Source: Chitinophagaceae bacterium (GTDB taxonomy: Bacteria > Bacteroidota > Bacteroidia > Chitinophagales > Chitinophagaceae). From it: 52,324 nt of DNA. Every line of letters starts with the position of its first letter. The stretch's first letter is position 1. The translations under genes and the position numbers were made by a program. Below are positions 29,883 to 45,668 of the stretch, in pieces. The DNA is taken from contig JAOAGO010000019.1 of NCBI GenBank assembly GCA_026415715.1, positions 1 to 52,324 of the forward strand, in the 5' to 3' direction. The notes beneath the pieces are model-generated. The model was not told the origin of the DNA, made no database searches, and worked only from the letters and a program-made list of their open reading frames with translations.

Positions 29883-31940
29883 ATGTCTTCTTACACCAAT
29901 CGCTTAATAAACGAAAAAAGTCCATACCTATTACAACATGCCCATAACCCCGTAAACTGGTATCCCTGGGGCGATGAGGCTTTTCAGATTGCCCGAAAAG
30001 AAGACAAACCCGTTCTGGTAAGTATCGGTTACTCTGCCTGCCATTGGTGCCATGTTATGGAAAAAGAAAGTTTTCAGGACGAATCCGTGGCCGCCATAAT
30101 GAATAAATACTTTGTGAATATAAAAATAGACAGGGAAGAGCGTCCCGACCTGGATCATTTATATATGGAAGCGGTACAACTGATAACCGGCAGTGGCGGA
30201 TGGCCCCTGAATGTGTTTCTTACGCCCGAGGGTAAACCCTTTTATGGCGGCACTTATTTTCCGCCCGAAAGGATGTTCAACAGGCCTTCATGGACGGAGG
30301 TGTTGCTTGCCATAGCAAAAATGTACAGGGAAAAAAAATCTGAAATCATAGACCAGGCCAATGACTTGACCAGGCATATCTCGCAAATCAATTTACATAT
30401 TTCAAGAAGCGAGGATTTACCCGATATTTTTATACAGAAGAAATCAGACGAAGTATTTTCCCTCCTCATGAAGCGGGCCGATATCCTTTGGGGTGGTTTT
30501 GAAAGCGCACCGAAATTCCCGATGACTTCCCTGTTGCATTATCTGTTTCGTTATTATTTCGCAACGGAAAATCAGGCTGCTTTACGACAGGCCTTGCTGA
30601 CGCTGGATAAGATGATTGCCGGAGGAATATATGACCATATCGGGGGCGGATTTGCCCGTTATGCAGTAGATTCAGGCTGGCATGTTCCCCATTTTGAAAA
30701 AATGCTGTACGACAATGCCCGAATCGTTCAGGCATTAAGCGAAGCTTTTCAAATTACCCGGAATGAGGATTACCGGCAGGTAATAGACGAAACCATAGCA
30801 TTTGTTTGCCGCGAACTGATGAACGAAGAATCAGGATTTTATTCTTCGCTGGATGCCGACAGTGAAGGGGAAGAAGGAAAATATTATAGCTGGACGTATG
30901 AAGAAGTAAATGAGATTTTGAAAGAGGAAGCTCCTCTTTTTTGTGAGTACTATAATATAATACCTGAGGGCAACTGGGAAAAAGCAAAAAATATTCTTTG
31001 GGTAAACCAATCATTAAAATTATTTGCTGAAGAAAAAGGCTTGAAATCCGAAAGCTTCCGTGAATATCTGAATGCCTGCAGGCTTAAGCTCTTTGAAAAA
31101 AGAAATCAAAGGATTAAACCCGGTTTAGACAATAAAATACTTTTAAGCTGGAATGCATTAATGAATACGGCACTGAGTCATGCATTCATGGCTACGGGAG
31201 ATGAACGATACAGAAACCTTGCCGTAAAAAACATGCAATTTATATTCAAACACTTTTTTCATGGCGATTCACTTTTTCATTTTATAAAAGACGAACATTC
31301 CGGCGTGCCTGCCTTTTTGGACGACTATGCTTTTTTAATTGAAGCTTTGCTCAGATTGCAGGAAATTACTTCAGATACAGAATGGCTAAAACAGGCAAAA
31401 TCTCTGAACGAAAAAGCCCTGACTTTATTTGGCGACGAAAGTAGCCACTTTTTTTTCTATTCGCCGGTTACCGCCACCGATATACCCGTTCGAACCAAAG
31501 AAATTACCGACACATCCACACCCTCCGGCAACGCCGTAATGGCGTTTAATCTTTATCATTTGGGAACGCTGTTCCAAAAAACCGAGTGGGTTTCGCGGGC
31601 CCATAAAATGCTGGAAGATTCATCAAAATATTTTATGCAACATCCGGTTTATTACGGACACTGGCTCTGTTTGTGGCAGGAGATTATCAGCGGCACCTGT
31701 GAAATTGCCGTAATTGGCGAAAAATGCAGAGAATTTGCCGACAGTTTGTTAAAAAATCATATCCCAAACAGAATTTTGATGAGTGCAGAAGCACCAAACC
31801 CGGCATTTCCGACTTTAAATAAAGAAAAATTACCGGGTAAAATTTCTGTTTATATATGCAGAAAAAATACATGTGAATTACCTGTTCATTCTGAAGAAGA
31901 AGCATTATCTTTGATTCAGAAAATGAAAAGTTTAATTTAA
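29883..31940 (+). CDS. Thioredoxin-fold DUF255 protein, YyaL/SPATA20-like
   Basis: The 685-residue protein belongs to a widely conserved family. Its N-terminal thioredoxin-like DUF255 domain has the motif [14 protein letters not shown] (Cys53 and Cys56), and a long (alpha/alpha)6-barrel-like domain follows ([66 protein letters not shown]). No signal peptide is seen, so it is cytoplasmic. Biochemical role is unknown; relatives have been linked with redox or nucleoside-sugar chemistry without proof. It stands alone between two short intergenic gaps. Confidence 0.92.
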
Positions 31941-40665: not shown

Positions 40666-40739
40666 GGACCCTTAGCTCAGCCGGTTAGAGCACCTGACTC
40701 ATAATCAGGGGGTCGCTGGTTCGATCCCAGCAGGGTCCA
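40666..40739 (+). tRNA. tRNA with anticodon CAT, probably tRNA-Ile2 (lysidine-modified)
   Basis: The 74-nt gene folds as a cloverleaf: acceptor GGACCCT/AGGGTCC with discriminator A, D stem GCTC/GAGC, anticodon stem CCTGA/TCAGG with loop CTCATAA, and T stem GCTGG/CCAGC. The TTAGCTCAG start, the GGTCGCTGG segment and the CAGCAGGGTCCA end match E. coli tRNA-Ile2 (CAT), whose C34 is changed to lysidine to read ATA. It is thus more likely Ile than Met; the gene at 12215 is the elongator Met. CCA is not encoded. Confidence 0.88.
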
Positions 40740-40776
40740 CTTCTCCGGAAAGATAGAGTGATGAAGTATAAGAACA

Positions 40777-41010
40777 TTATTTAATTTCTTCAAATTCAAT
40801 ATAATCCTCCGAGTCTTTATTCCTCTTATTTCGGTTATCTTTTGCGGTTTCAGAATACCTGTTTTTCTGGTCAAAATGCTGCATGATTTGTTGTTTAAAT
40901 TCTTCTACTTTGTTTTTTAAAAGTCTTCGGAATTTTAAAAGAGGAATGATAAGTCGGAATATTAAAAAATATGCCGTTAAAAGTAAAATAAAATAACCTA
41001 TATATTTCAT
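40777..41010 (-). CDS. DUF4834 family small membrane protein
   Basis: The 77-residue protein has one N-terminal membrane helix (MKYIGYFILLLTAYFLIF) and a charged, probably disordered cytoplasmic tail. It ends in DSEDYIEFEEIK, the hallmark of DUF4834, a Bacteroidota family of unknown function. Its 3' end lies 37 bp from the tRNA-Ile2 gene on the other strand, and its start is divergent from rimP. Confidence 0.8.
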   Translation of the reverse strand: MKYIGYFILLLTAYFLIFRLIIPLLKFRRLLKNKVEEFKQQIMQHFDQKNRYSETAKDNRNKRNKDSEDYIEFEEIK

Positions 41011-41070
41011 CCGTCAAAGATACTTTAACTACAAAGAAGAGAGCGAAGTTCTTTTGGAAAATAAAGGCGT

Positions 41071-41104
41071 TTTTTTGGATTTTACATTCTTTCCATTACT
41101 TTTG
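41071..41104 (+). promoter_or_regulatory. Promoter of the rimP-nusA-infB operon
   Basis: TTTTTTG at 41071-41077 is followed after 19 bp by TACTTTTG at 41097-41104. Both boxes and the spacing fit the Bacteroidota consensus; this is the best promoter in the window. The transcript would start near 41109, leaving a leader of about 50 nt before rimP. Confidence 0.8.
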
Positions 41105-41122
41105 CATCGGAAAGAGTTGTAA

Positions 41123-41153
41123 GAAGGGAACGGAGGCGTTCCCTTCGTTTTTT
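41123..41153 (+). promoter_or_regulatory. Terminator-like hairpin in the rimP-nusA-infB leader (attenuator candidate)
   Basis: GAAGGGAACG (41123-41132) and CGTTCCCTTC (41137-41146) form a perfect 10-bp stem closed by a GAGG loop, followed by G and six T (41148-41153). This has all the parts of an intrinsic terminator, yet lies between the promoter and the first start codon (41161), with no gene upstream on this strand that it could terminate except the tRNA 380 bp away. It is therefore best read as a transcription attenuator of the operon that encodes NusA. Confidence 0.7.
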
Positions 41154-41160
41154 AAGAAAC

Positions 41161-41631
41161 ATGAAAGAAGATATAGTCCTTTCGTACATCAGGGAAAAAA
41201 CCGAAACGCTGATATCAGCTGACACCGATGTGTTTCTGGTTGATCTGCGGATCGGGCCGTCTCATAACATACAGATTATTTTGGATAGCGATTTTGGAAT
41301 AACAATAGACAGACTGGCACAGTACAATCGCTTGCTGTACAAAGAAATTCAGACCAGCGGTATGTTTAAGGATGGCGACTTTTCATTGGAATTATCTTCG
41401 CCGGGTGCCGAAGAGCCGCTGAAATTCCATCGTCAGTATGTAAAAAATGTAGGGCGAGTGGTGGAAGTTATCCGGAAAGACGGAATCAAAACCGAAGGTT
41501 TGCTGAAAGAAGTTACCGAAAATGAAATATTGCTGGAAACCCGGCAAAAAAAACAAAAAAGACAGGAGTTGTCTTTACAGGTAATACCTTTTGAAGAAAT
41601 AAAGACAACCCGTGTACTTATACAATTTTGA
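41161..41631 (+). CDS. rimP: Ribosome maturation factor RimP
   Basis: RimP helps to assemble the 30S ribosomal subunit. The 156-residue protein has the family layout: an N-terminal alpha/beta domain (VFLVDLRIGPSHNIQIILDSD, GITIDRLAQYNRLLYKEI, DFSLELSSPGAEEPL) and a C-terminal SH3-like barrel (GRVVEVIRKDGIKTEGLLK, VTENEILLETR, PFEEIKTTRVLIQF). It is the first gene of rimP-nusA-infB, an order conserved across bacteria; nusA starts 26 bp after its stop. Confidence 0.95.
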   Translation: MKEDIVLSYIREKTETLISADTDVFLVDLRIGPSHNIQIILDSDFGITIDRLAQYNRLLYKEIQTSGMFKDGDFSLELSSPGAEEPLKFHRQYVKNVGRVVEVIRKDGIKTEGLLKEVTENEILLETRQKKQKRQELSLQVIPFEEIKTTRVLIQF

Positions 41632-41657: not shown

Positions 41658-42902
41658 ATGGCCAGTATTAATCTCATAGAAGCTTTTCGGGATTTCAAAG
41701 AGGCCGAAAATATTGACCGACCTACGATGATGAAAGTCATAGAAGATGTTTTTAAAACTCTTCTGAGAAAAAAATACGGAACCGACGAAAACTTTGATGT
41801 GATTGTTAATGCTGAAAAAGGGGACCTTGAAATTATACGTCGGCGACTGATTGTGGAAGATGATCAGTTGAAAGACCCCATGCGTGAAATAGCATATTCA
41901 GAGGCCATCAAAATTGAGCCGGATTTTGAGGTGGGCGAAGAATTATACCAGGAGATAGATCTTAAGGATTTTGGCCGAAGAGCCATACTGGCCGCCAAAC
42001 AAACACTCGCCGGCCGCATCAGCGACATCAAAAAGAATGCATTGTTCCGAAAATACACAGATCGAATCGGCGAAATTGTAAGTGCAGAAGTGTACCAGGT
42101 CTGGAAAAAAGAAATTCTTCTGCTCGATGAAGAAGGAAACGAACTGATACTTCCCAAAAGCGAACAGATACCGCAAGATCATTTTAAAAAAGGAGAGACC
42201 ATAAGAGCCGTGGTAAAGCGGGTAGATATGAAAAATAACACACCCGTTATCATCCTTTCCCGAACTTCGCCGGAATTTCTGGCTAAACTGCTGGAAATTG
42301 AAGTGCCTGAAATTTTTGACGGCCTGATTGTTGTGAAAAAAATTGTACGAGAACCCGGCGAACGGGCCAAGGTAGCTGTAGAATCGTACGACGATCGCAT
42401 TGATCCGGTTGGCGCCTGTGTAGGAATGAAGGGAAGCCGGATTCACGGTATTGTGAGAGAACTAAGAAATGAAAACATTGATGTGATTAGCTGGACAAAC
42501 AATATTCAACTTTTGATACAAAGGGCCCTTACACCCGCCAAGATAACCAGCATGGAATTAGACCATGAAAATAAACATGCTAATGTTTATCTGAAACCGG
42601 ATCAGATATCGCTGGCTATCGGAAAACGGGGTGTGAATATTAAACTGGCTTGCGAGCTTACCGGATACAATATTGACGTGTACAGAGATAATGAAGGCGA
42701 AGAAGAATTTGATATTGATCTGGATGAATTCAGCGACGAAATAGACGGGTGGGTTATAGATGAATTAAAAAGGATCGGATGCGATACGGCACGCAGTGTA
42801 CTGGATCTTACTCCGGAAGAACTGGAAAGAAGAACCGATCTGGAAAAAGAAACTATTGCAGAAGTCAGAAAAATTCTGAAAGCTGAATTTGAAAAGGATT
42901 AA
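41658..42902 (+). CDS. nusA: Transcription termination/antitermination factor NusA
   Basis: NusA binds RNA polymerase and nascent RNA and tunes pausing, termination and antitermination. The 414-residue protein has the N-terminal polymerase-binding domain, an S1 domain (GEIVSAEVYQVWKKEILLL, KKGETIRAVVKRVDMKNNTP), two KH domains (CVGMKGSRIHGIVRELRNEN; PDQISLAIGKRGVNIKLACE) and a short C-terminal helix-hairpin-helix-like segment. The acidic repeats of E. coli NusA are missing, as is usual outside proteobacteria. It may control its own operon through the leader hairpin. infB follows after 24 bp. Confidence 0.97.
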   Translation: MASINLIEAFRDFKEAENIDRPTMMKVIEDVFKTLLRKKYGTDENFDVIVNAEKGDLEIIRRRLIVEDDQLKDPMREIAYSEAIKIEPDFEVGEELYQEIDLKDFGRRAILAAKQTLAGRISDIKKNALFRKYTDRIGEIVSAEVYQVWKKEILLLDEEGNELILPKSEQIPQDHFKKGETIRAVVKRVDMKNNTPVIILSRTSPEFLAKLLEIEVPEIFDGLIVVKKIVREPGERAKVAVESYDDRIDPVGACVGMKGSRIHGIVRELRNENIDVISWTNNIQLLIQRALTPAKITSMELDHENKHANVYLKPDQISLAIGKRGVNIKLACELTGYNIDVYRDNEGEEEFDIDLDEFSDEIDGWVIDELKRIGCDTARSVLDLTPEELERRTDLEKETIAEVRKILKAEFEKD

Positions 42903-42926: not shown

Positions 42927-45668
42927 ATGCCTGAAACCAAACTACCTAGATTACTGGCAGCAGCCAAAGAGTTTAACATTGGCCAGGAAACATTAATTGA
43001 TTTTCTGGTAAGCAAAGGGTATTCCCGCGACGAATTAAAACCCACTTCTAAGCTTACCGAAGACATGTATCGGGCATTGCAGCAAGAATTTTCCGGAGAT
43101 AAAGCCGCTAAACTGAAAAGTGATCAGCTAGAATTACCCCGAGGTATCACGGATATCAAAAAGAAAAAAGACGAAGAAGCTGATTACAAGCGGGAAGAAA
43201 AATTATCTTTATTCAAAACCGTAAAAGAAGAAGAAGAAACCACAGAAGAGCTACCCGTACTGAATACAGAAGAGGAGCGCAAAGCGGAAAATATTTTGCG
43301 ATTGGAAGCCGAAGAACTCGAAGGGCCGAAAATTATTGATAAAATAGACCTGTCGTCCATTGATTCCTCAACCCGTCCTAAAAAAACGGCTAAATCCAAA
43401 AAGAAAGAAGCGTCTGAAAACATCAAAACAGAAGAAGAGATTCAGCCAACGCCTGAAGAAGTAGTAACACAAAATGTTACAGAACCCGAAGCGCCAGACG
43501 CTCCCGTTATTGAAAATATTGAGGTGGAAAAACTGACCGGGCCGAAAATACTGGGTAAAATAGATTTACCGGTTGATTCGGATACCCGCCCTGTAAAAGA
43601 AGAAAAAAAGAAAAGAAAGCGCATCCCCATAATAGATAAAAAAGAGACCCGAAGGGAAATTTATATTAATAAAGAAGCTGATGACAAAAAACAGTCCAGG
43701 CAAAAAGGAAATAAGAAAGACATACTAAAGAAAAAAGAAGAAAAAGTTATCGATGAAAAGGAAATTCAGGAAAAAATAAAGGAAACGCAGGCAAAGCTGG
43801 CAATATCTACCGGCAGGGGAAAAAGCCTGAAAGCAAAATTGAGAAGAGAAAAAAGGCAGGAGATGGCCGAAATGCAGGGAGAAACGATAGATGATAAAAA
43901 ACTGCAGTTAACGGAGTTTATCAGTGTGAGCGAGTTGGCCAGCCTGATGGACGTTAACTATACTGATGTGATCAGTAAATGTATGAGCCTGGGAATTATG
44001 GTTTCCATTAATCAGCGACTTGATGCAGAGGTGATAGAACTGGTAGCTGGTGAATTCGGATATCATGTAGAGTTTATAGATGTAGAAAAACAAATGGAAA
44101 TAGAAGCAGAAAAAGAAGAAGATCAGGATGATGAATCGGCCCTGGTGCCCCGGTCTCCTATCGTAACCATTATGGGCCATGTGGACCATGGTAAAACATC
44201 ACTGCTCGATTATATCCGTAATACCAATGTGGTGGCCGGTGAAGCCGGAGGAATAACCCAACATATCGGAGCCTATCAGGTAGAGCTTCCTAACAACAAA
44301 CAAATAACTTTTTTGGATACCCCGGGGCATGAAGCGTTTACAGCCATGCGGGCACGGGGCGCCAAAGTAACCGATATTGCCGTTATTGTGATTGCGGCTG
44401 ATGATGCGGTAATGCCTCAAACCCGCGAAGCCATAAGCCATGCACAGGCAGCCGGTGTTCCCATGATTTTTGCTATTAATAAAATAGATAAAGAAGGGGC
44501 TAACCCGCAAAAAATTTATGAGCAACTGGCGCAAATGAACCTGTTGGTAGAGGAATGGGGCGGCAAATATCAAAGCCAGGAAATCTCAGCCAAAAAAGGA
44601 TTGAATGTAGATAAGTTGCTTGAAAAAATTCTGCTTGAGGCGGAATTACTGGATTTAAAAGCCAATCCCAACCGTCCCGCTACGGGAACCATAATTGAAG
44701 CTTCATTGGATAAAGGGAGAGGTTATGTAGCCACCGTGCTGGTTCAAAACGGAACATTGAAACAGGGCGATATCCTGGTGAGCGGCCAGTATTACGGACG
44801 GGTGAAAGCATTGTTCAACGAAAGGAATAAGCGATTAACCGAGGCCGGTCCTTCCACTCCTGCCGTTGTGTTAGGACTGAACGGAGCGCCTCAGGCCGGC
44901 GAAAAATTTAAAGTATATGAAGATGAAGCCGAAGCCAAAGAAATCGCTAACCGGCGGGCACAGTTAATCAGAGAACAGGGCATCCGAACCAAAAAGCATA
45001 TAACTCTGGATGAAATCGGAAGAAGACTGGCTCTGGGAAGTTTCAAGGAACTCAATATCATCATCAAAGGCGATGTGGATGGTTCGGTGGAAGCGCTCAG
45101 CGATTCGCTGCAGAAACTTTCCACGGAACAGATTATGGTTAATGTAATTCATAAAGGAGTGGGACAGATAAATGAAAGCGATATCGTACTGGCCGAAGCT
45201 TCCGATGCTATCGTTATTGGTTTCAATGTACGACCTTCCATTCAGGCGGCCAAAAAAGCAGAAAGTGCCGGAATTGAAATTAAATTGTATTCTATCATTT
45301 ACAACGCCATTGAAGAGGTGAAAAGCGCCATGGAAGGTATGCTGGAGCCGCAGGTGCAGGAAAAAATTGTGGCTAATGTGGAAGTGCGTGAAATTTTCAA
45401 ATTTGATAAAGCAACGGTGGCCGGATGTTATGTGCTGGATGGGAAAATTAAACGAGACGCCAAAGTGCGTATCATCCGGGATGGTATTGTTATCTATCCG
45501 CCTGCCGGAAGCGAAGCTGAACTCGGCTCGCTGAAACGGTATAAAGATGACGTGAAAGAAGTTTCGGCCGGCATGGAGTGCGGATTAACAATCAAAAACT
45601 TCAACGACATCAAAAAGGGTGATATTATTGAGGCCTACGAAATTGAAGAAATAAAAAGAAAGTTATAA
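42927..45668 (+). CDS. infB: Translation initiation factor IF-2
   Basis: IF-2 is the GTPase that places initiator tRNA on the 30S subunit and promotes subunit joining. The 913-residue protein has an IF2-N domain ([20 protein letters not shown]), a long charged Lys/Glu-rich linker (residues about 70-320), a second IF2-N domain ([18 protein letters not shown]), then the G domain with GHVDHGKT (about 417-424), DTPGHEAF and NKIDK, and domains II-IV ending in [17 protein letters not shown]. Within the linker the phrase [20 protein letters not shown] is a near repeat of an earlier [21 protein letters not shown]-like segment, an internal duplication. Confidence 0.97.

Follow-up and report, generated by a model that had tools for sequence, protein, structure and literature searches.

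The window, meaning here the whole stretch of 52,324 nt that was analysed (contig JAOAGO010000019.1 of a Chitinophagaceae bacterium), contains rimP, nusA and an infB-like ORF, which run in one direction downstream of a terminator-like hairpin. The features of this leader and of the operon are reported in Table 1. The promoter elements TTTTTTTG and TACTTTTG, read from the window at a distance of 19 nt from each other, are presumably a pair forming a promoter of the Bacteroidota type; by the usual promoter rules, transcription would start near 41110, about 13 nt ahead of the stem. TAnnTTTG, to which the second element conforms, is given as the -7 consensus in a passage of PMC9723704.

The hairpin is composed of GAAGGGAACG (41123-41132), the loop GAGG (41133-41136) and CGTTCCCTTC (41137-41146), and its 24 nt have a predicted folding energy of -16.5 kcal/mol. 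Among 24 terminator-like sites located between 36000 and 50000 (15.5 expected from shuffles, sd 3.6) it ranks first. Seven nucleotides, AAGAAAC, separate the last of the six T from the rimP ATG at 41161. The layout given in the preliminary description, i.e. promoter, 18 nt, 10-bp stem, GAGG, six T and 7 nt to rimP, is exact to the base, in coordinates as well as in counts.

Table 1. Leader and operon features in the window, with the basis of each assignment
Feature	Position	Strand	Basis
Upstream promoter element TTTTTTTG (TTTG at 41074-41077)	41070..41077	+	sequence
-7 box TACTTTTG (TAnnTTTG)	41097..41104	+	sequence
Spacer between box and stem, 18 nt	41105..41122	+	sequence; contains neither CCC nor ATG
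Terminator-like hairpin, perfect 10-bp stem, GAGG loop	41123..41146	+	sequence, fold, conservation, co-variation
Putative termination tract, G (41147) and six T (41148-41153)	41147..41153	+	sequence
rimP	41161..41631	+	ORF; RimP_N match 41254-41412
nusA	41658..42902	+	ORF; NusA_N match 41670-42035
infB (initiation factor IF-2)	42927..45668	+	ORF; identity from sequence and gene order

A tRNA-Met gene (CAU anticodon) is located at 40666-40740 (+), about 400 nt upstream of rimP. Counting the window, 6 of 22 loci of the same genus have a tRNA-Met gene, on either strand, within the fetched flanks, and in E. coli metY lies upstream of rimP. Between the tRNA gene and the rimP promoter lies a short ORF of about 75 codons (~40780-41010, minus strand), which we take to be DUF4834-like; since it is divergent, a role of the hairpin as 3' terminator of a same-strand upstream gene is ruled out.

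Conservation was evaluated with a hairpin caller requiring at least 6 contiguous pairs, at least 4 GC pairs and a T-rich tail. The order-level set was made up of 30 loci of relatives and the best 80 NusA-match loci in named genomes; one locus (L076), which has no rimP, was left out, so that 109 loci, the window's own included, were available, corresponding to 103 distinct leaders after subtraction of six second copies. For the class, leaders were taken from 120 of the 125 other genomes having a RimP_N match within a sample of 139 genomes. The preliminary description had made its reading depend on the presence of the hairpin in close relatives, and the caller detected one at all 109 order-level loci and in 107 of the 120 leaders from the class, whereas of 687 dinucleotide shuffles only 13 were positive. 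The leader hairpin is not there by chance. Some class-level positives sat on a neighboring hairpin (e.g. L129, L159, L171); these and the 13 misses were re-read by eye, and the hairpin proved to be missing from six of the 120 leaders, L152, L171 and L177 in genus g72, and L187, L212 and L214 in genus g60. The five remaining class genomes all have the element (three by caller, two by eye). Of 216 caller-positive leaders, 207 have a TAnnTTTG box ahead of the hairpin, with median distances of 19 nt from box to stem and 13 nt from stem to ATG; at one locus (L156, L248) rimP begins about 220 nt downstream of the hairpin. Throughout the set the stem is followed by a T-rich tract, this being also a requirement of the caller.

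When 108 hairpins were aligned with MAFFT, the 5' arms came out of register owing to the varying loops, and a hairpin model was then seeded from 24 sequences of equal length. Co-variation was evaluated on 100 of the 120 class loci, which gave 93 rows on the correct strand, 90 of them distinct. The covarying stems that had been expected in related leaders were found: 684 of 691 cells are paired (99.0%, against 90.4, sd 0.45, with shuffled partners), a figure biased toward the model, to which the alignment was fitted. Several stem positions alternate among A-T, G-C, C-G and G-T pairs over the 90 distinct class rows, the G-T combination accounting for 33 of the 684 paired cells. The loops of 98 class-level leaders measure between 3 and 12 nt. 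Within the window's group, the arms GGGAACG...CGTTCCC are exact in 88 of 95 distinct leaders, with 47 different loops and RimP proteins only 38-56% identical to that of the window; the arms are therefore kept in sequence as well as in pairing. Leaders of the class mostly have GGGGAC/GTCCCC arms. G outnumbers C in the 5' arm of 213 of the 216 caller-positive leaders, while at 19 ordinary 3' terminators this arm is G-richer in seven cases, C-richer in seven and equal in five.

The element is tied to its operon. Among the other ORFs of the same 80 loci and the window, 20 of 323 have a caller-positive hairpin in the 164 nt upstream; a TAnnTTTG box precedes 51 of such ORFs, and the single one combining box and hairpin is the rimP of L109, which had escaped the filter for other genes. 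The palindrome GGGAACG-N3-8-CGTTCCC occurs once in the 2.6-Mb genome from which the window derives. The hairpin model itself also matches other terminators in many genomes, among the matches listed, and has at least three matches in its own genome; it is thus no proof of uniqueness, and the claim of uniqueness rests on the exact palindrome. The second-best match of the model in the window (30920-30946, plus strand, AAAGAGG...CCTCTTTTTT, 15.6 bits) resembles an ordinary terminator. The hairpin element belongs to the rimP-nusA-infB operon.

A profile search found no RimP_N match in 13 of the 139 class genomes. Two of these have no NusA_N match either, and in a third (G124, L233) hairpin and nusA are separated by an ORF the size of rimP. 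This leaves ten genomes containing nusA and no detectable rimP. The second RimP domain gave no match above cut-off in the rimP-less genomes. Weak RimP_C-like matches were inspected at 8 of 11 loci, those of G094 and G172 being left out, and none is RimP-like; the proteins found there are presumably YajC-like, NusG-like or other. Nine of the ten genomes, from four families (f32, f40, f59, f76), carry upstream of nusA both a TAnnTTTG box and a hairpin followed by a T tract. The caller detected five of these and the model eight (E of 0.5 or better), while the ninth genome, G080, was recognized by eye. In one genome (G150, L232) some 240 nt separate hairpin and nusA. The tenth (G061, L241), only 0.5 Mb in size, has between box and nusA just an AT-rich stem (about 10 pairs, T-rich tail), which may be a remnant or due to chance. 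In genomes without rimP, the element accompanies nusA. This disfavors RimP as a partner, and speaks for a target in nusA or elsewhere in the operon; since the leader is also the promoter region, its retention after the loss of rimP could be partly passive.

Outside the class, 40 loci were fetched, and 38 were kept, one locus of the window's own order and another truncated at a contig end being removed. The caller detected a hairpin at the place expected for a rimP leader in 28 of them, including six for which no rimP ORF was listed and the position was judged; the ten negatives belong to f77 (two), f86, f88 (five), f92 and f93. Arms are GAAAGTGGGG...CCCCACTTTT in f82, and tandem hairpins are found in f78 and f90. 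In the rimP leader of f81 (L275-L281, L306), TCGCCCC...GGGCGA, polarity is reversed, the 5' arm being C-rich and the 3' arm G-rich. In E. coli K-12 the caller finds an upstream hairpin only, and a short GGGC...GCCC hairpin is visible by eye before rimP.

Some lineages lack the hairpin. In genus g60 the -7 box lies within a few bases of the rimP start codon: since the two almost abut, the leader itself is gone and the message looks leaderless. Genus g72 has a short leader and no hairpin. Ranked by mean NusA_N score, the families without a GC hairpin (f41, f57, f65) are first, second and fourth lowest of 61, while in RimP_N score f57 and f65 are 10th and 25th lowest of 55, f41 having no RimP match. 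Families f34 (third), f53 (fifth) and f32 (seventh) score low for NusA_N and keep the hairpin. Tests at genome level gave p 6e-5 for NusA_N and p 0.16 for RimP_N, values which both ignore relatedness. Hairpin energy was correlated neither with NusA_N score (Spearman -0.11, p 0.23, n 119) nor with RimP_N score. In 40 chosen genomes of the 139, those without hairpin also have low scores for the NusA KH domain, and f65 has a low score for IF-2, so that the NusA_N pattern, which was noticed post hoc and concerns three lineages, may in part reflect fast evolution. We put forward only tentatively, and with more doubt than confidence, the idea that throughout the Bacteroidota the hairpin might be a dedicated NusA feedback element, evolving with NusA rather than with RimP, kept before nusA in the rimP-less genomes and missing where the N-terminal domain of NusA is unusually divergent.

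For the leader as a whole, the favored reading, to which a probability of roughly 0.6 is assigned, is that of a minimal transcription attenuator of rimP-nusA-infB, a terminator strengthened by NusA and exerting feedback on its own operon. An antiterminator would need a run of C ahead of the stem. A CCC is found between box and stem in 10 of 207 leaders, and an ATG-started leader ORF of at least 4 codons in 7 of 207; control by an antiterminator or a leader peptide is therefore unlikely in most leaders, and both candidates were set aside as rarely possible. No alternative antiterminator fold was seen in the window leader, and the leader seems too short for one. What remains is a bare terminator, and it must be polymerase-bound factors that set its strength. 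For NusA, a general termination factor that stimulates intrinsic termination, there is no simpler gauge of termination efficiency than a terminator placed before the operon encoding it. NusA is the first candidate because of this activity, because it is encoded downstream, and because of the B. subtilis precedent discussed below.

In the course of events that we infer for this genome, from start site and termination to NusA dependence and feedback, RNA polymerase starting near 41110 would transcribe some 13 nt ahead of the hairpin. The hairpin would then form and a share of the transcripts would stop in the T tract near 41153, yielding an RNA of about 43 nt, while the remaining ones would read on into rimP-nusA-infB. 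NusA bound to the polymerase would aid the hairpin and raise termination; output of the operon would accordingly go down at high NusA and up at low NusA.

The same leader may be read in other ways. The hairpin might terminate a constant share of transcripts and set the operon level with no meaningful NusA feedback, an unlikely option still to be taken seriously, because a strong stem with six T is in principle factor-independent and no sensing domain is visible in the leader; retention of the leader before nusA where rimP is missing speaks against it, as does the report that in B. subtilis NusA stimulates termination in its own leader (excerpt of the review PMC12288461). The constancy of the arms, exact in most close relatives despite varied loops and diverged RimP proteins, and the G-rich 5' arm, in contrast to ordinary terminators, would suit control of termination or decay by a protein, not NusA, that recognizes the RNA sequence of the stem (RimP, a ribosomal protein or another one). 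We regard this as improbable: the arm counts are inflated by shared ancestry, the polarity is reversed in f81, outside the class, and RimP is an unlikely reader because the element persists without rimP.

Two further readings dispense with termination. The short distance from stem to start codon would agree with a hairpin at the 5' end of the mRNA, stabilizing the message or limiting rimP translation, which we hold to be very improbable, since the T-rich tract is not needed for such a role and the element is also found before nusA, at distances which vary and once reach about 240 nt (L232). A perfect 10-bp dyad directly downstream of a promoter could be a repressor site acting as a DNA operator; of all the readings this deserves the least credence, given the range of loop lengths and the G-T cells, which break the symmetry of DNA and keep the pairing of RNA.

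Some observations also weigh against the attenuator reading: six class genomes, belonging to two genera, keep rimP-nusA without the hairpin; ten of the 38 loci from other classes of the phylum are caller-negative; hairpin energy is uncorrelated with NusA_N score; and the strong stem and unbroken T6 of the window differ from the NusA- or NusG-dependent terminators of B. subtilis, which, according to a passage of PMC8060035, tend to have a suboptimal hairpin or an interruption of the distal U-tract. The window has a G and then six uninterrupted T; an interrupted TT[ACG]TTT is found in 54 of the 88 distinct close leaders with exact arms. The regulatory reading of the preliminary description stands in so far as a conserved, co-varying, terminator-like hairpin lies between promoter and first gene. 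NusA feedback appears, by analogy, to be the best-supported mechanism, and the rimP-less genomes strengthen it; the supposed novelty is not supported. If the attenuator reading is true, most of class Bacteroidia would share a minimal solution having its own promoter type and stem sequence, the rimP-less genomes would point to NusA, and not to RimP, as the partner, and studies of intrinsic termination in Bacteroidota would gain a native test site that is short and strongly conserved.

Attenuation of nusA in B. subtilis was reportedly described by Mondal in 2016. It was tested in that organism, which belongs to another phylum, and autoregulation of NusA through NusA-stimulated termination in its own leader is stated in review PMC12288461; the corresponding behavior in the window is presumptive. 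A feedback by NusA has been proposed for E. coli too. For the gbs0413-gbs0418 operon of S. agalactiae, a passage of PMC4448216 describes a terminated RNA, detected by RNA-seq, that ends 31 nt after the rimP-nusA start, and proposes NusA feedback. The window is similar in having a terminator soon after the start and in the proposal made, a likeness of description and not of sequence; termination was seen by RNA-seq there and is deduced here. For F. psychrophilum, PMC9723704 reports, in a passage giving neither sequence nor mechanism, that a structured 5' element precedes rimP, is conserved among further genera of Flavobacteriaceae and has no Rfam hit; it may be compared with the window element in its place. 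An excerpt of PMC6511841 names terminators upstream of rimP in E. coli, with no relevant change of read-through after cold stress, and excerpts of PMC8040213 and PMC9931155 do not mention the rimP leader. In the open-licence PMC literature, searches on Bacteroides Term-seq, the rimP leader and Bacteroidetes nusA attenuators yielded nothing further on this leader.

Rfam family RF01770 (rimP, gammaproteobacterial) likewise consists of terminator hairpins before rimP and, unlike the window, is a tandem structure of 102 positions. The E. coli K-12 leader, used as positive control, scored 102 bits against a gathering cut-off of 47 bits; the window and five other Bacteroidota leaders were unmatched, and nothing exceeded the cut-off in the genomes of 19 relatives. 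A search of the window against Rfam, at gathering score and with E up to 10, detected two tRNAs and, at the hairpin site, only matches far below the cut-offs.

Close to the window leader, too, is the general single-hairpin form of the rimP-leader (Naville and Gautheret 2010, PMC2965389), found across bacteria. That paper ranks it as the most ubiquitous of transcription attenuators and names NusA as the best candidate. As in the window, a terminator with a T stretch lies upstream of rimP-nusA-infB, at 4 to 130 nt from the gene in the published cases; the 5' arm is G-rich and the 3' arm C-rich (GGGAACG/CGTTCCC in the window), no antiterminator is visible, and NusA is suggested. With the published core, GGGc(...)gCCC, the arms of the window and the prevalent ones of the class agree in part: GGG...CCC is present, and the next pair toward the loop is A-T in the window and G-C followed by A-T in most class leaders, in place of C-G. 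The promoter of the window, of Bacteroidota type, is a further difference, and the word stem 'Bacteroid' is absent from the main text of that paper. The preliminary suggestion that no such case had been described is not supported beside these reports (PMC2965389, PMC4448216, PMC12288461, PMC9723704). The leader is of a kind already known and would work like the described rimP-leader attenuator; new, relative to the open-licence PMC literature searched, are its class-wide conservation, the sequence of its stem and its persistence before nusA in the absence of rimP.
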